A stretch of 64,000 nt of DNA from Calothrix sp. FI2-JRJ7. Lineage in GTDB: Bacteria; Cyanobacteriota; Cyanobacteriia; Cyanobacteriales; Nostocaceae. The notes beneath the pieces were generated by a model, which was given only the letters and a program-made list of their open reading frames with translations, was not told the DNA's origin and did no database searches. Each line of letters opens with the position of its first letter. The first letter of the stretch is position 1. This document shows positions 29,359-43,377 of the stretch, piece by piece. The stretch lies in contig JAHHGX010000083.1 in assembly GCA_019359675.1 (NCBI GenBank), forward strand, positions 62,001-126,000, given 5' to 3'. Position numbers and translations under genes: made by a program.

Positions 29359-32300
29359 TTAATACTGTAGAATTTTATGACAAAGCTGCTTATTACTGCT
29401 ATTCCTGAGATAGTCTCTCGCTTGTAAACAACCTTTTTTCAATAGACCATTTAAATCCAAAGTTTGTGTTTCTGTATCAAGCTTCCAAAATCTCACAGTT
29501 GTATCATTGCTAGCTGAGGCCAGTTTTTCTCCATCCGGGCTAAAGTCAGCGCTCCAAACCCAATCATCGTGTCCTTGAAAAATATGTGTTCTCTTACCGT
29601 TATGGTTCCAAAGTCTGACGGTATTGTCAAAACTGGTAGAAGCAATCATATTGCCGTCCCGGTTAAATTTTACACCAATTACTCTTTCCTGATGTTCGCG
29701 CAAACGCTTATTATCTTTAAGATGTATTTCCTTATTTTTGTTTGATTGGCATAATATCTTAGTATCTACGTTCCAAAGTCCGATAGTTTTATCATCACTG
29801 GCAGTAGCAATCTGAGTACTTTGTGGGCTAAAATCAATACCATTAACTTCATCGTCATGTCCCATTAAAGTTGCACACAAAGTGCCATCCAGCTTCCAAA
29901 TTTTGGCAGTGTGGTCATCGCTTGCGGTAGCAATTACAGTTCCATCGGGACTAAAACTGACATCTACAACTCGGTCACTATGTCCCTTCAAAGTTGTAAT
30001 ATTCTCACCATTTAGGTTCCAAAGTTTAGCGGTTTTATCCGCGCTGGCAGTAGCAACGATTTTTCCATTTGGACTAAAGCGCGCGTAAAATACTTCTCCT
30101 TTATGCCCTTGAAGGGTTGTGATATTTCTAAGATTACGACTCGACCAGATTTTCGCGGTTTTGTTAACGTTGGCAGTAGCTATCTTAGTACCATCTTTGC
30201 TAAAACTAACACCATATACACCACCAGTGTTATTATCGATGATTTTTATTAAGCGCCCATCAGTTGTCCAGAGTTTAGCGGTTGCATCCTCACTGCCAGT
30301 TGCCATGTAGGCACCGTCAGGGCTAAAACTAACACTACGAACGGCGCCAGTATGTGCTTGAATTGGCAGCAAGCTGTTGTCAAGCTTCCATAATTTTACA
30401 ATGTTATCGGCGCCTGCTGATGCCATTACTTTAGCCTTTGGATTGAAGCTGACGCTATTAATTCGAGCGTTATGCCCTTTAATAATTGTACGTAAGGTGC
30501 CATCGATATTCCAAAGTCTGACCGTTTTATCCCAACTTGCAGTCGCAATGGTTTTGTTGTCCGGGTTAAAACTGATATCAAATACTCGATCTGTATGTCC
30601 CTTGAAAGTTATAAGTTCCTTGCCTTCTAAATTCCAAAGTTTAGCTGTTTTATCCCAACTGGCAGTTGCAATAGTTTTACCATCTTGGCTAAAGCTAATA
30701 TGATGAATTTTATCAGTATGACCATTAAAACTTTGAATCTCATTACCATCTAAATCTAAAAGTTTGACATTGTTATCACTTGTACTAACCCCTATGATTT
30801 TATCTGTTGTGCTAAAACTTACACTATTAACTACATCATTATCAGTCCATATGGTTTTGAAGGTTTGACTGTTTAGATTCCAAAGCAAAACCTGTTTCCC
30901 GCTGGCTGTAGCTAATGTTTGACAGTCAGGACTAAAGCTCGCTTTCAGAACACTATCATTGTGGCCCAAAGATTTACGTAAACTGCCGTCTATATTCCAT
31001 ACTTTCACAGTTTTATCTGCGCTTGCAGTGGCAAACGTATTACCTTTAGAACAAAAACTAATGCTATAAAGTTTATCTTTATCTTTGTAATTTAAGATTT
31101 TGTATGAACCATCCTCTAAATTCCACAGGATAATTTTTCCATCTAAACCAGCGGAGGTAATCATTTTACCATCTGGACTAAAAGCAATATCATAAACCCA
31201 GTTAGTATGCGCTTGTAAACGGTTAAGTTCTTTTTCGCTATCAACTGCTAATTGCAATACTTTCACAACTTGTTTATTTAAAAATGAATCTGTCTCAATT
31301 ATTTGTTTAAATCTTATTCCTACTTCTAAAGCAGATATTAATGCATCTAATTTCTGGTTTGCTAATAAAAGGTTTTCAGAAGAAACAGTGATTGCTTGAA
31401 TCTCATTTTTTTGTGCTTGTCGTCGTTGAATGTCGGTTTGCCACAATCCTATTCCTAATGCTCCTGCCAAAATAGAAATTGCTCCTATAGCACTAGCAAA
31501 AGTTAATTTTTTTAGGCGCCTTTTTTGCCTAAACTCCTTCTCCTTTAATGCTAAACTAGCTGTTATATAAGGCTGCTCATCAACATTCAAATCGTTTGGG
31601 CGCCTTTGTAACCATCCTTCAGCATCAATTAAACGTTTACCTCGTAATAATTCGCTTTCATCCTGATTATTTTTTTCCCATTGCTGCATTGTTGCTCGCA
31701 ATTCAGAAAGCCAAATACGGAACTCGCGGTCTTGTTTAATCCATTGGCGCAGGCGTTCCCATTCTCTAATTAAAGCTTCATGTACAATTTCTACAGTTTC
31801 TTTTTTTGTTGCGTCATCGCGTCCTGTGACAATTAAACGCGATGACGCAAGATGCATTACTAAATCCCAGTTTTTTTCCCCAACTTCAGCACGCTTTGCT
31901 AAATACCGAGCATCTTCTGTCCCTACCCCAGGAAGCACTAACTGAACAAAAATTCGACGTGCTTGTTCTTGTTCTTCTAGATTGAGTTTACTGTATACTT
32001 GTTCGGCATAACGAGCTAAAGCCGCTTCAATACCACCAATTTCATCATAAGCCGCATGAGTTAAGCGGGTATCTGTTTGTTTTTCCCATAGTTGAGTTAA
32101 AGCAAACTCTAGTAATGGTAAATCACCTGCCTGACTACCAACGGCGCCTAAAATTCGCTCAGTTAGTCCAGATTCTAGAGTTACACCAAGCAGCGCTGCT
32201 GGTTTTTGTACTACAGCTTGTAATTCTTGATTATTCATTTGACTTAACTTTAAGTCATTATGCTGTAACACATCAGCAAAAGGTCGATAGGAAAGAGCTT

Positions 32301-33921
32301 GACCTAAAAAATCTGCCCTGAGAGTGATAACAAAAGTAAAATTATTTGTATTGCTTATTAATGTCAATAACCTGTCTAAAAAAATCTGACGCTCTTGTGT
32401 ATCTTGGCATAAGGTGTAAAGTTCCTCAAACTGGTCAATAACTATAAAAATTTTTTCGGAGTCATCTAGAGAAATATTATTTAATGTATCTTGCAAACAA
32501 TTCCCTTTGTGCTGCAAATCGCTAACTAGGTTTTGAATTTCTTGGCGCCGTGTAGAAGTACCCATTTGCGGTTCCAGATAGCTTAGTAGTGCATTCGCAA
32601 AAGCATGAAGCGGCTCTGAGCTAGGTCGAAAAGAAATGATGTGCGAGTTACTAATTTGACGTAAATGGGGAATAAGACTAGCAAATATTACTGATGATTT
32701 GCCGCTACCACTAGAACCAATAACCGCAACTAAAGGTTTGTTTTGTACAGCTTCAAGTAATTCATCTGTAAAAGTTTCTCGTCCAAAAAAGAGCTGTGTA
32801 TCTTCTTCCCGAAAAGCAAATAAACCACGATACGGGCATATGTTAGTAGGACGACGACCCAAGTCTTGCCAGAAATGTGGTTGAGTGGCAGGATTTTGAA
32901 AAATTACTGGCAACCAACTGGCACATGGAAACTCGTCTTCTAAAACAAATAATTTCTCGCGTGCTTCTCGTTCTGCCATGTATATAGATTTACCAGTAGC
33001 GAAAGCTGGGAGAAAGTAAGTGATAAATGCCTGTGCAACTTTATCTGGCACAGGTTCCCGCATCACAATAATTTCAGGGATATGTAGCTTTTGTAACTCA
33101 AACGCTAATCCCATACCATCACAGGAGTTGAAAACAGCTAAAGCTAAACCATTATTAACAGCATTTCTCAATCCATACTTTAGCCGTTCAATGCTTAAAC
33201 TATCGGTTTGATTAATATAAATTTGACCGCTACTGCCTTCAGTTATGCTATGACCTGCGAAAAATAAGATGTCCCAAGGTTGCTCCCACAAAGAGTCATT
33301 AATTTCCTGACGCTGCGGTTCTACTAAAAACGTAATTTCTGCATCCGGCAAATTAGTTATTATTTGTCTATCTTGTTCAATGTTAATACCCGTACTATCA
33401 CCTAGAATTGCTAAGACTTTGACTTTACTTCGTAATGTGGGCGTTTTTGCTTTCTGAGTTGGTTCCGAATCTGGCGTGCTTAAAGCTACTTCCACATGAG
33501 TATTTTTTTCAATTAAATCCCATTGATGCCAAGGGAGTTCCAACAACGACTGACTCGAAGTGCGAATTAGCAAGATAACCTCGTCAGGAATAACAAATTG
33601 TTGAAGGCATTTGTCACGGACAGGACGAAAAGGTTCTGAAAGTAGCCATTGATTCAGGTGGTTACGTAACTCATTTGCAGCAAAGTTACAGTTTTGGCGC
33701 CAATTACTTACAAGTTTTATCCCTTTAGGTATAATTCGAGAAGCGTATACATTATTATATTCTGACTTCCACTGGGTAAAAACTGTTGATAAAGTTAGGT
33801 TAATAGGCAAATTTCCGGTGATTTCTGCATGATTAAGATGATTATCTTCTTCAATCGTCAGCGTAACCCTTACTCCGCTTACTAAATCACCATCTAACTT
33901 TAAATAAAGCAGCTTTCTCAT
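29359..33921 (-). CDS. CHAT protease / STAND NTPase / WD40 protein
   Basis: A 1520-residue multidomain protein. Residues 1-345 hold a CHAT caspase-like domain with likely dyad His224 in ILFFAGHS and Cys267 in AVFNSCDGMG. Residues 365-800 hold a STAND-type NTPase: RGLFAFREEDTQLFFGRE, Walker A GSSGSGKSS (Lys408) and Walker B FIVIDQFEELY. A hydrophobic helix follows near residue 810, then 14 WD40 repeats (about 900-1490, two 7-blade propellers) with GHTDRVFDISFNPD-type units. By known family logic, ligand sensing by the propellers would trigger NTPase assembly and CHAT proteolysis, a design used in cell death and antiphage defence. Its real trigger and target are unknown. ATG at 33921; no operon partner. 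Confidence 0.93.
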   Translation of the reverse strand: MRKLLYLKLDGDLVSGVRVTLTIEEDNHLNHAEITGNLPINLTLSTVFTQWKSEYNNVYASRIIPKGIKLVSNWRQNCNFAANELRNHLNQWLLSEPFRPVRDKCLQQFVIPDEVILLIRTSSQSLLELPWHQWDLIEKNTHVEVALSTPDSEPTQKAKTPTLRSKVKVLAILGDSTGINIEQDRQIITNLPDAEITFLVEPQRQEINDSLWEQPWDILFFAGHSITEGSSGQIYINQTDSLSIERLKYGLRNAVNNGLALAVFNSCDGMGLAFELQKLHIPEIIVMREPVPDKVAQAFITYFLPAFATGKSIYMAEREAREKLFVLEDEFPCASWLPVIFQNPATQPHFWQDLGRRPTNICPYRGLFAFREEDTQLFFGRETFTDELLEAVQNKPLVAVIGSSGSGKSSVIFASLIPHLRQISNSHIISFRPSSEPLHAFANALLSYLEPQMGTSTRRQEIQNLVSDLQHKGNCLQDTLNNISLDDSEKIFIVIDQFEELYTLCQDTQERQIFLDRLLTLISNTNNFTFVITLRADFLGQALSYRPFADVLQHNDLKLSQMNNQELQAVVQKPAALLGVTLESGLTERILGAVGSQAGDLPLLEFALTQLWEKQTDTRLTHAAYDEIGGIEAALARYAEQVYSKLNLEEQEQARRIFVQLVLPGVGTEDARYLAKRAEVGEKNWDLVMHLASSRLIVTGRDDATKKETVEIVHEALIREWERLRQWIKQDREFRIWLSELRATMQQWEKNNQDESELLRGKRLIDAEGWLQRRPNDLNVDEQPYITASLALKEKEFRQKRRLKKLTFASAIGAISILAGALGIGLWQTDIQRRQAQKNEIQAITVSSENLLLANQKLDALISALEVGIRFKQIIETDSFLNKQVVKVLQLAVDSEKELNRLQAHTNWVYDIAFSPDGKMITSAGLDGKIILWNLEDGSYKILNYKDKDKLYSISFCSKGNTFATASADKTVKVWNIDGSLRKSLGHNDSVLKASFSPDCQTLATASGKQVLLWNLNSQTFKTIWTDNDVVNSVSFSTTDKIIGVSTSDNNVKLLDLDGNEIQSFNGHTDKIHHISFSQDGKTIATASWDKTAKLWNLEGKELITFKGHTDRVFDISFNPDNKTIATASWDKTVRLWNIDGTLRTIIKGHNARINSVSFNPKAKVMASAGADNIVKLWKLDNSLLPIQAHTGAVRSVSFSPDGAYMATGSEDATAKLWTTDGRLIKIIDNNTGGVYGVSFSKDGTKIATANVNKTAKIWSSRNLRNITTLQGHKGEVFYARFSPNGKIVATASADKTAKLWNLNGENITTLKGHSDRVVDVSFSPDGTVIATASDDHTAKIWKLDGTLCATLMGHDDEVNGIDFSPQSTQIATASDDKTIGLWNVDTKILCQSNKNKEIHLKDNKRLREHQERVIGVKFNRDGNMIASTSFDNTVRLWNHNGKRTHIFQGHDDWVWSADFSPDGEKLASASNDTTVRFWKLDTETQTLDLNGLLKKGCLQARDYLRNSSNKQLCHKILQY

Positions 33922-35635: not shown

Positions 35636-35843
35636 TATATATTATAAAACCAAAACCAACTGTGTAATTGTTCAAGTTATTTTTACATAACTCCTAAAAC
35701 GAAAAATATTGCATAACCAGCGCGATAGTTGAGTAATTTTCCGGAAAAAATGGGCTTCTGGGTGCGACCGCATTTAAATAGATTGCAACTTTCACTAATT
35801 GGGTGTACAATGGGATTACAAAGAGAGTCATAGGAGAAAAATC

Positions 35844-40255: not shown

Positions 40256-40407
40256 GAAGCAAATGTGAGTTGTTAAGTTATGTTAATTTATTTAAGTTCT
40301 GGGAAATTTTGCATAAAACATCGCTGCTTGCTTCGTAAACAACTTGGTAGTTGTGGGGATATTATCTCAAACTACCTTGAAGACGCTCGTTAGGAACGGA
40401 GGTTTCG

Positions 40408-41043
40408 ATGTGTGAATTAGCTGAACAAATGCGGCAGTTGACGTTGGAAGCGCAAAATAACCCCTCCAATAGTGTTGCTAGACGCAAAGCACTAAATAAT
40501 TTGGTTAAATTAATTCAAGGTTCTGGACAGTTAAGTAGACAACAAAGTTGGTCGCAGTTAGCTAACTTCGAGGAGATATATCAAGAGGCAGTTAATGATG
40601 CTTTAGTAAAGTTTTGTAAAGATATAGAGAAATATAGTCCTCAATATCCTGTGATGGCATGGGTAAATCATATATTTAGGTGGTGTTTTTTAGATGCGGT
40701 GAGTAGGTATCGCGAACGTACACCAATATGTTCTTTTGATGAGGAAGCAGCAGAAGAGAGACTATTTAAAGATTTGCTGGAAGGGGAGGGGCAAAGTAAA
40801 GAAGATGCCAATTTATTTAGAGATTTTATTGAAAGTGACCCAGAAGGTATTTTGCAAAACTTACATATTAGAAGAGATAGAAATACGAATTTGCAAAGAA
40901 TTTTGATATTCCTTTGTGAGGGAAGAGAGTGGAGAGATATATCTATCAAATCAGGACATCCTATTCCTACACTTTCAAGTTTTTATCAAAGAAGCATTAA
41001 AAAGCGTAATGTCGTTGAGTATTGTCGTAAATATTTACAGTAA
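40408..41043 (+). CDS. Sigma-70-like regulator of the DUF1822/CHAT cluster
   Basis: A 211-residue soluble protein. Residues about 55-100 (YQEAVNDALVKFCKDIEKYS, VMAWVNHIFRWCFLDAVSRY) resemble sigma region 2, and residues about 165-205 (LIFLCEGREWRDISIKSGHP followed by LSSFYQRSIKK) resemble a region 4 helix-turn-helix. It is shorter and more divergent than ECF sigma factors, so its ability to bind RNA polymerase is unproven. GGAGG lies seven bases before ATG at 40408. A DUF1822 gene follows after 42 bases and a CHAT gene next, a set recalled from other filamentous cyanobacteria. Confidence 0.75.
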   Translation: MCELAEQMRQLTLEAQNNPSNSVARRKALNNLVKLIQGSGQLSRQQSWSQLANFEEIYQEAVNDALVKFCKDIEKYSPQYPVMAWVNHIFRWCFLDAVSRYRERTPICSFDEEAAEERLFKDLLEGEGQSKEDANLFRDFIESDPEGILQNLHIRRDRNTNLQRILIFLCEGREWRDISIKSGHPIPTLSSFYQRSIKKRNVVEYCRKYLQ

Positions 41044-41085
41044 ATCGTATTCAGCAATTAAATCAGCACAAACAGGTAACTCATT

Positions 41086-42000
41086 ATGAACATAAGTACT
41101 CAACAAGATAGTTTTAAAGTATTTTTATCTTATTCAGCACATGATGTTGCTAAAAAGCAAAGTCAAGGTATATCTAGTGTTGAAGCAACGAAAAAAGTTT
41201 ACCTCAATTCTTTAGCTACCTACGCAGTAGATTATTATCTTAATTGTATGAGCTTTGAAACCGTTAAGGATAGAGATATTCATCAGAATCCTTGGATGCA
41301 AAGTTTCATTAATACAGCAGATGTAGAAGTTAAAAATGTTGGTAAGCTCGAATGTTTACCTGTTGCACCAAATACTGAATATTATAAAATTCCACAAGAA
41401 GTTGCTTCTGACCGTGTAGCGTATATATTTGTACAAATCAATTTATCTTTAAACGAAGCACATATTATTGGATTTACGCCTAATTTCACTGTTCAAACGG
41501 CGCCCACTATTGCATTAAATCAATTACAATCAGTAGATGACTTACTAGAATATTTAACTCAGAAAGAACAAGCCGCGATTGTAAATATTAGTCAATGGAT
41601 ACAAGGATTGATTACAGAAGGTTGGCAAAATCTGGAAAATATATTAAATCCACAGCAGCTAGCTTTCGTAAGAAGTCGCCAATTTAGCATTACGCAAGCA
41701 AAAAAGATTGATTTGGGTTTACAACTAGATAATACACCTATTGCATTAGTTGCACGAGTTGCTTCAGAAAATGAAGACACAATTAACATGACAATTCAAG
41801 CTTGTCCTTTAGAAAGTACATATTTACCTCAAGGATTAGAGTTAATTGTCAATGACGAAAATGGAGAAAGCGTTTTAAATGCAACTTCTAGAGAACATGA
41901 TAACTGGGTCGAAGTTACACTTAGTGCCCAAGTCGGAGAAAAATTTAGTGTTGATGTTTGTTTAGGAGGGTCAAAAGTTACACAATACTTTATCGTGTAA
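41086..42000 (+). CDS. DUF1822 family protein
   Basis: A 304-residue soluble protein with DUF1822 marks: KVYLNSLATYAVDYYLNCMS, NPWMQSFINTADVEVKNVGK directly followed by LECLPVAP, and a middle part with QLQSVDDLLEYLTQ. The second half (about 205-304) is beta-rich, with QACPLESTYLPQGLELIV, which resembles an immunoglobulin-like or lectin-like fold. No catalytic residues are obvious. Its function is unknown. It lies between a sigma-like gene and a CHAT gene in one direction; constant pairing with CHAT proteases suggests substrate, adaptor or regulator. Length looks complete. Confidence 0.85.
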   Translation: MNISTQQDSFKVFLSYSAHDVAKKQSQGISSVEATKKVYLNSLATYAVDYYLNCMSFETVKDRDIHQNPWMQSFINTADVEVKNVGKLECLPVAPNTEYYKIPQEVASDRVAYIFVQINLSLNEAHIIGFTPNFTVQTAPTIALNQLQSVDDLLEYLTQKEQAAIVNISQWIQGLITEGWQNLENILNPQQLAFVRSRQFSITQAKKIDLGLQLDNTPIALVARVASENEDTINMTIQACPLESTYLPQGLELIVNDENGESVLNATSREHDNWVEVTLSAQVGEKFSVDVCLGGSKVTQYFIV

Positions 42001-42012
42001 TCACGTGTAAAT

Positions 42013-42040
42013 GTAGAGACGCGACGTGTCGCGTCTCTAC
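42013..42040. repeat. GTAGAGACGCGAC palindrome
   Basis: GTAGAGACGCGAC and GTCGCGTCTCTAC pair around GT. It lies between DUF1822 and the CHAT gene and might reduce read-through into the latter. Confidence 0.7.
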
Positions 42041-42081
42041 AATGCACAAATTTTACAAAATATTTTAATATTAAACCATTT

Positions 42082-42899
42082 ATGAAAAAACTAGTTGTTC
42101 TTAAATTTGACGGCGCCTTCAAATCGGGTTATCGAGTAAATTTAACAATTAGTAACGCTGGTGAAACACCAAACTTAATTATCAGCGCAAAATTACCATC
42201 AGCACTCGCTGTTATCGAAATTCTCAATCTTGGTGTGATACTTATCGCAGCTTCTATGGACAATCTCGTATTCGACCCCTAGGTACAATAAATGTAAATA
42301 TTCAAGCTCTGAATCAAGACTTTGGTCAAAAATCACAAGAGTTAATTACAAGTTTAAATAACTGGCTAGCATCAGATTATTTTATTAAAGTTAAGGATTG
42401 TTTAGAAAAAGTTAATATAGAAGATGAAATTCGTGTAATTATTGCTACTAGTTGTCAAAAATTGCGTAAGCTGCCTTGGCATTTATGGGATGTCTTACAA
42501 AAATATCCTTATGTTGAAGTTGCTTTAAGCGCACCTGATGCTGAACGTGGAGAACGTATTTATCGAGACAAAGCTAGAATTTTAGTTGTTCTGGGTGATA
42601 GTACAGATATAAATGTTGAAGCTGATAGAGAACTTCTTCAAGAATATTGTAAAAACGGTGAGATAATTTTACTCAAAGAACCATCGCGCGAAACATTAAT
42701 TGACCATCTACGCGATAATGCTGGATGGGACATATTATTTTTTTCAGGACATTCTCGGACTGATATGTTAATTTCTTGGAATTTCAATTTAGATGATTTA
42801 TTAGTACGTGGATGTAAGTTGATAGAAGGTTATTTAGAGAATGACCCTGATGTGAGTCCTGGAGATAAAAATTTGTGTGGGTTGTCTTCGCTACGTTAA
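42082..42899 (+). pseudogene. CHAT-STAND-WD40 gene, frameshifted and internally deleted
   Basis: The start, MKKLVVLKFDGAFKSGYRVN, closely resembles the intact protein at 29-34 kb (MRKLLYLKLDGDLVSGVRVT). Near 42232 the frame shifts; the next frame continues TYRSFYGQSRIRPLGTINVN and LRKLPWHLWDVLQKYPYVEV, and reaches WDILFFSGHSRTD with the CHAT His. It then leaps directly to ISWNFNLDDLLVRGCKLIEG and YLENDPDV, which is like the final tail of cyanobacterial WD40-STAND proteins. The catalytic Cys, NTPase and propellers are missing. So the ancestor was a CHAT-STAND-WD40 gene. The joint lies near 42770. Confidence 0.8.
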
Positions 42900-43155: not shown

Positions 43156-43377
43156 ATGAAACTTAAAGCTATATTGCTCGGCGCCTTGTTTATTGGCACC
43201 ACAATCTCTGCTGTCATTGTAACGGCGCCTACACGTGCAAATATAACTGAAACCTCAAATTCTCCAAAAGTTTGGCAAATCTTTACTTCTGGAAAGTGCC
43301 CTACTACTCGTAAACCGCGTAGACGAACCAATATATCGAGAGCAAGAAATGATTCCTGCCCAAAAATTTCACGATAA
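43156..43377 (+). CDS. Small secreted protein, unknown
   Basis: A 73-residue protein with a clear signal peptide: MKLKAILLGALFIGTTISAV, then IVTAPTRA as a likely cleavage site near residue 28. The mature part is short and basic with two Cys (GKCPTTRKPRRRTNISRARN, then SCPKISR), which could form a disulfide. The family is not recognised. It is alone, convergent with nblA, whose stop lies just three bases past its own. Two GGCGCC motifs suggest long residence in this genome. No clear ribosome binding site is seen. Confidence 0.55.
   Translation: MKLKAILLGALFIGTTISAVIVTAPTRANITETSNSPKVWQIFTSGKCPTTRKPRRRTNISRARNDSCPKISR

Follow-up and report, generated by a model that had tools for sequence, protein, structure and literature searches.

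An ECF-like sigma factor, DUF1822 and CHAT caspase gene set in Calothrix sp. FI2-JRJ7: a possible signal-released sigma switch for surface and secreted proteins

The locus and the decay of its third gene

We analyzed a window of 64,000 nucleotides from Calothrix sp. FI2-JRJ7 (GCA_019359675.1, contig JAHHGX010000083.1, positions 62,001-126,000), which is part of an 8.66-Mb genome; coordinates given below are those of the window. Positions 40408-42899 hold three genes of the same direction, for a putative sigma factor of the extracytoplasmic function (ECF) type, here called SIG, for a DUF1822 protein, and for a CHAT-domain, caspase-like protein, the last being a remnant. An original prediction made on this DNA had described the trio, its reading frames and the decay of the protease gene in this strain, all of which held on comparison with intact relatives. 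The features considered are as follows:

40408..41043, plus strand: intact gene of the ECF-like sigma factor SIG (open frame, sigma fold of the model)
41086..42000, plus strand: intact DUF1822 gene of the short form (Pfam PF08852, E 5.6e-55, and model)
42082..42899, plus strand: remnant of an EACC2-like/CHAT/nSTAND1/WD40 gene (frame change and a gap of ~3.66 kb)
40291..40317, plus strand: weak element resembling an ECF promoter, ahead of SIG (TTTAAG, spacer of 15, exact TGCATAAA)
29359..33921, minus strand: intact CHAT-nSTAND1-WD40 paralogue of the broken gene, 1520 amino acids (aa) (open reading frame, CHAT match, nSTAND1, WD40)

The remnant shows a frame change at about 42215-42290 and has lost about 3.66 kb at 42763-42769 that is retained by intact relatives; it stops ahead of the Cys motif, and the catalytic His and Cys pair is therefore incomplete. 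Judging by the position of the conserved stretch ahead of CHAT, we infer an EACC2 domain at the N-terminus of the caspase protein. In five named close relatives (L085-L089: Calothrix sp. HK-06, PCC 7103, PCC 7716, NIES-4105, and Dulcicalothrix desertica PCC 7102), whose DUF1822 proteins are 84-91% identical to that of the window, the third gene is whole in L085, L088, and L089 (1476, 1481, and 1475 aa), with nSTAND1 and WD40 found by Pfam in the L085 protein, and is disrupted in L086 and L087 at sites other than those of the window. The protease gene is thus kept in three and broken in three of the six close genomes, and the sigma and DUF1822 genes are open in all six. A further copy in the FI2-JRJ7 genome (L081, G000:C63:8778-9960) combines an intact sigma gene with a DUF1822 gene that a stop codon interrupts close to the end of the contig.

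For the window copy alone, there is a substantial, though clearly minority, chance that the pair is a relic decaying along with its protease. The patchy breakage of the protease gene in the close genomes and the weak element of the window agree with this explanation. Against it stand the open frames of both genes throughout and dN/dS values that stay far under 1 even when two genomes lacking the protease are compared (for sigma and DUF1822, 0.13 and 0.21 between the window and PCC 7103, and 0.11 and 0.22 between the window and PCC 7716), values that are not decisive, as their weight depends on when the protease was lost. With the protease lost, the pair may be served by another CHAT protein, may work free of CHAT, or may be on its way out. 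A possible stand-in is the paralogue at 29359-33921, located 6.5 kb ahead of the sigma gene on the opposite strand and adjoined by no sigma or DUF1822 gene; its CHAT match (C83:94869-95648, corresponding to window positions 32869-33648) has an E-value of 2.0e-12. A 73-aa open reading frame at 43156-43377 was considered as a relic of a DUF928 gene or of the secreted family described below and found unsupported in that role, since DUF928 accompanies the CHASE2 type of CHAT protein and the frame called at the same place in L085 matches no regulon protein.

Conservation of the gene set across cyanobacterial genomes

Neighborhoods of DUF1822 genes were mapped with profiles made from the loci of this analysis in three sets: the own genome (19 DUF1822 matches; CHAT matches in this genome number 51), the best 80 of 251 relatives in named genome records, picked by similarity to the window protein, and a phylum sample of 60 regions (63 genes, one region per genome) selected from the listed matches of a search that covered 386 genomes, 240 of them with a DUF1822 match. 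The phylum listing is biased to strong matches, a few genomes possibly occur in two sets, and only genes with room on the side examined were counted. DUF1822 has a short sigma gene, or a longer one that is sigma-like, as its direct neighbor in 16/19 cases in the own genome (6 short, 10 long), 71/75 cases in the named relatives (all short), and 47/63 cases in the phylum sample (14 short, 33 long). Because the long profile was seeded from genes beside DUF1822 of the own genome, what its count demonstrates is the presence of this one family at that position. CHAT genes lie no more than 1 kb downstream of DUF1822 in 10/17, 60/76, and 35/61 cases, respectively. Among genes with room on both sides, sigma and DUF1822 occur without CHAT in 6/17, 13/71, and 23/61 cases, and DUF1822 has neither neighbor in 1/17, 1/71, and 3/61 cases. 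The suggestion that the three genes form a conserved unit is borne out by these counts: DUF1822 is found mostly beside sigma-like genes, often with CHAT, and in no set mostly far from both.

Several arrangements depart from the common one. Long sigma-like and long DUF1822 genes without CHAT, as at L225:7796-10727, where a DUF4870 gene and then an oxidoreductase gene follow, and at similar loci, perhaps represent a CHAT-free branch. At L274:8112-9875 (plus strand), a protein with two trypsin-like stretches stands beside sigma and DUF1822, a different protease occupying the CHAT position. TPR-CHAT proteins immediately precede DUF1822 at L232:8787-11618 and L248:4876-7599. At L241:11763-14306, an exoprotein with a two-partner secretion (TPS) domain is encoded two genes ahead of DUF1822, which is a further tie to surface proteins. 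The small genomes of family f37 (about 1.5-2.5 Mb) for the most part have one DUF1822 match apiece, and a weak one (E from about 1e-4 to 1e-17), possibly a distant single-copy relative.

The three proteins and their co-variation

The model of SIG carries an ECF fold that includes sigma region 2, and ECF sigmas make up six of the nine PDB sequences that its profile matched at E ≤ 1. With regard to region 4, the model has helices at 162-210, its whole-chain alignments to sigmaE have a large rmsd, and Pfam gives no match. By fold and sequence profile SIG is an ECF sigma factor with predicted activity in transcription; the earlier sigma-like assignment is thus supported by a model in which the sigma fold is present.

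The short-form DUF1822 model consists of an alpha/beta part and an Ig-like beta sandwich. Assignment of this form as a TPR protein was rejected on the basis of the model and of a Pfam search without any TPR family at E ≤ 1. Ribonuclease H was the only match of the DUF1822 profile among PDB sequences at E ≤ 10, and no fold match covered the N-terminal part, a negative of little weight because this part was predicted within the whole chain only.

Catalytic His and Cys motifs are present in 114/117 CHAT proteins longer than 450 aa in the loci. The CHAT partners differ in their further domains: CHAT-CHASE2 (3/3 by Pfam, further members being assigned by our own profile), CHAT-nSTAND1-WD40 (Pfam), and a pentapeptide-CHAT form, in which the protein starts with pentapeptide repeats rather than CHAT (4/4 tested). 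A DUF928 gene follows 51/60 CHASE2-type CHAT genes, compared with 1/102 cases of another or no CHAT, and this coupling points to an envelope-facing sensor pair.

Co-variation was measured in 48 non-redundant triples, 26 of them in the CHASE2 class, with CHAT distances taken from the aligned CHAT region. Pairwise distance correlations, which are inflated by shared species history, were 0.70 for sigma-DUF1822, 0.68 for DUF1822-CHAT, and 0.58 for sigma-CHAT, and in both sets the pairwise values exceeded those of all 999 permutations. The corresponding partial correlations were 0.51, 0.48, and 0.20 for all triples and 0.52, 0.71, and -0.05 for the CHASE2 class, a pattern that fits DUF1822 as the middleman between sigma and CHAT.

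A promoter-like element upstream of sigma genes

The dyad GTAA-N19-TAAA occurs in 12 of 64 sigma upstream regions, compared with 6-8 for the most frequent dyad of whatever kind across 20 single-base shuffles; the ECF promoter words GGAAC, GAACT, TGAAC, and GAAAC showed no enrichment before sigma genes. The aligned element reads about TGTAAAGTTTTGTAACAA-N-TTGCRTAAA, and a half-repeat about 10 bases ahead of the -35-like box is conserved and visible in many sites. We propose, from the sequence pattern, that the element is an ECF promoter composed of TGTAAM, a spacer near 16, and CRTAAA (TGTAAM-N15..17-CRTAAA), which we take to resemble Bacillus ECF promoters (TGTAAC or TGAAAC with CGTA). The element would be read by this sigma family.

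A position weight matrix (PWM) was trained on 13 loci and scored against 900 other upstream regions. Among 79 other sigma upstream regions, which include relatives of the training loci and count the window twice, under the 99th percentile, 21 exceeded the 99th and 38 the 95th percentile. Across 2.51 Mb of DUF1822-centered loci the matrix gave 73 matches, a site with two possible spacers entering twice in some cases. Sigma genes follow 41 of them, CHAT-nSTAND1 genes 3, and other genes 22, and 7 are distant from genes. The three CHAT-nSTAND1 genes, in L101, L102, and L107, are detached, lying several kb away from sigma-DUF1822. The window element, at a score of 8.2, lies between the 95th and 99th percentiles; its -35-like TTTAAG has two mismatches to TGTAAM, and a single other relaxed match occurs in the window, at 35646 on the minus strand.

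Genome-wide searches used the pattern TTGTAAM-N12..15-TGCRTAAA with its reverse as the control. In 12 genomes selected through named loci that include sigma genes, the majority of them carrying the element, 42 sites were found vs. 2 reversed; in 18 genomes with DUF1822, chosen irrespective of the element, 60 vs. 4; and in 18 genomes without DUF1822, 6 vs. 2, three of the six evidently being one orthologous site. The contrast of 60 sites in about 154 Mb with 6 in about 69 Mb is indicative, because the genomes without DUF1822 are smaller and belong partly to other families. Among 291 genomes of the class, a strict pattern including the half-repeat matched at 4 sites, in 2 genomes, vs. 2 sites for the control; this pattern was too stringent and not well targeted.

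The element may instead be the site of another regulator, such as RpaB (site HLR1), next to an ordinary promoter, with co-regulation independent of the sigma factor. This is unlikely in our estimation, even though the half-repeat would be superfluous for an ECF promoter alone: sites are scarce in the genomes lacking DUF1822, the spacer to CRTAAA peaks at 16 (29/43 sites), and reading the listed next genes by eye revealed no photosystem or high-light gene.

Genes downstream of the element

At least one genome occurs in both element sets (G017 and G616, same coordinates), and identical contexts were collapsed before genes were counted. The 105 distinct sites of genomes with the system are followed by sigma genes (19), TPS exoproteins (11 sites, two of them before one gene), RTX proteins (6), a secreted family of ~143 aa (5), CHAT genes (4), a small divergent family (2), and other genes with a signal-peptide-like start (10); not one of the six sites in genomes lacking DUF1822 precedes any of these named classes. 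TPS matches total 170 over 7 of the first 12 genomes, which corresponds to well under 1% of genes, the gene number being estimated. By a crude rule, signal-peptide-like starts behind the element (20/92) are in modest excess over the background (95/676). Proteins encoded behind PWM matches include, above the Pfam cut-off, a trypsin-TPR protein, two DUF4114 proteins, and an RTX protein, and, below it, a B_lectin and a PspA/IM30-like protein.

Two of these families recur. The small protein (70-90 aa) is encoded divergently from the sigma gene at L144:8674-8922 (minus strand) and also at L139, L148, L153, and L287; it has a conserved RDVVxExxxTGYLT stretch and its own copy of the element ahead. 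The ~143-aa family stands repeatedly behind the element (L100:7920-8348, L100:14930-15358, L105:16420-16848, and L340), has a signal-peptide-like start in L100 and L105, and gave no Pfam match for the one member tested.

A possible sigma switch and its alternatives

Our leading interpretation, which we hold tentatively and at somewhat less than an even chance, is a signal-released switch in which CHAT frees the sigma factor from DUF1822 for the expression of surface and secreted proteins. SIG would be kept inactive by DUF1822, the middle protein, and CHAT would be the caspase-like protease, fused to an exchangeable sensor part: membrane-spanning CHASE2, in which case DUF928 is encoded next to it, nSTAND1-WD40, or pentapeptide repeats. 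A signal would activate CHAT, DUF1822 would be cleaved or remodeled, and the released sigma would transcribe its own operon and genes of exported or surface proteins from TGTAAM-N15..17-CRTAAA promoters. Inhibition by DUF1822 and its cleavage by CHAT are postulated by analogy with Craspase, which frees an ECF sigma by cutting its inhibitor.

In Craspase (Csx29 TPR-CHAT, Csx30, CASP-sigma), as here, one locus combines a CHAT protease, an ECF sigma, and a sigma inhibitor, putative in our case; there the release of sigma by cutting of Csx30 was demonstrated by experiment and the trigger is RNA bound by Cas7-11, whereas here release is proposed and the sensor would be CHASE2, nSTAND1-WD40, or pentapeptide repeats (PMC10028731). 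DUF1822 is likened to Csx30 by role; no Csx30 was listed among the PDB sequence matches at E ≤ 10 or in the best 50 of the DUF1822 fold-match lists. Regulated anti-sigma proteolysis of the RseA/DegS and RsiW type is cited in PMC10028731. It likewise joins an envelope-linked signal, breakdown of the sigma holder, and ECF output, all of which are proposed here. The proteases and inhibitors of those systems are unrelated to the present ones. Inhibitors of the RseA/RsiW type are membrane proteins. The ECF54 group likewise has CHAT-domain proteins in its genetic context, and proteolytic control was proposed for it (PMC8999054).

The set had been presented as a candidate undescribed system, which does not stand: in Kaur et al. 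2021 (PMC8195603), ECF sigma and DUF1822 genes are already reported as neighbors of EACC2-caspase genes, and the ECF sigma is proposed to pass the signal on to transcription. The loci share with that system the three gene types, the caspase-domain gene beside ECF sigma and DUF1822 (a remnant in the window), the constant N-terminal region plus caspase, and the variable C-terminus including CHASE2 and STAND; DUF1822 is labeled a TPR protein there, unlike the non-TPR model of the short form here. The present analysis adds to that account, as consulted, a non-TPR model for DUF1822, the pairing of DUF928 with CHASE2, the co-variation chain, the promoter-like element and its target genes, and the tie to Craspase. 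A search of the PMC literature found no co-mention of CHASE2 with "CHAT domain"; DUF1822 is mentioned by two papers there, EACC2 by two, of which one is unrelated judging from its title, and DUF928 by one.

Kaur et al. propose a conflict or programmed-death system, in which the caspase self-activates on an invader signal and the sigma drives a counter-invader or suicide response. The company of caspase, STAND, and CHASE2 domains, together with that published proposal (PMC8195603), and the patchy loss of the protease favor it. We nevertheless regard it as improbable, since the nameable genes behind the element are mostly for secretion or surface, and PADLOC (2023 library) recognized none of the proteins submitted to it, namely sigma, DUF1822, the remnant, and one CHAT-CHASE2 protein. 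A self-destruction program, as originally suggested, is not supported and is lowered as the leading reading: exoproteins, RTX and other secreted proteins, sigma factors, and CHAT proteins follow the element. DUF1822 might instead act positively on sigma, as a co-activator or recruiter, with CHAT turning the system off by destroying either protein. Linkage and co-variation agree with this as well, and the commonness of sigma-DUF1822 pairs without CHAT favors it. It is doubtful in view of the known CHAT precedent, which removes an inhibitor, and is otherwise inseparable here from release of an inhibited sigma.

Several observations weigh against the release switch. Of the 105 sites, 48 precede another gene or none; the co-variation chain mirrors the gene order, and recombination could yield the same pattern; Foldseek E-values of the sigma model are weak (best 0.03); only two of four tested members of the long upstream family, seeded as it was beside DUF1822, exceed the Pfam Sigma70_r4 cut-off (one lies below it and one has no match); the element of the window clade is weak; and the element is in part like the RpaB site HLR1.

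Filamentous cyanobacteria are rich in caspase homologues, which are commonly treated as death proteases. More tentatively still, many cyanobacterial CHAT caspases may be triggers of a large family of sigma switches, represented in this genome by 19 DUF1822 copies, for exported and surface proteins (TPS exoproteins and RTX proteins, for example) rather than executioners, with DUF1822 as a new kind of anti-sigma and Craspase as a CRISPR-linked use of the same logic. If so, a caspase class would release sigma factors for surface and secreted genes, making the question of its function directly testable, and Craspase would be placed within a wider non-CRISPR family of sensor-protease-sigma switches.
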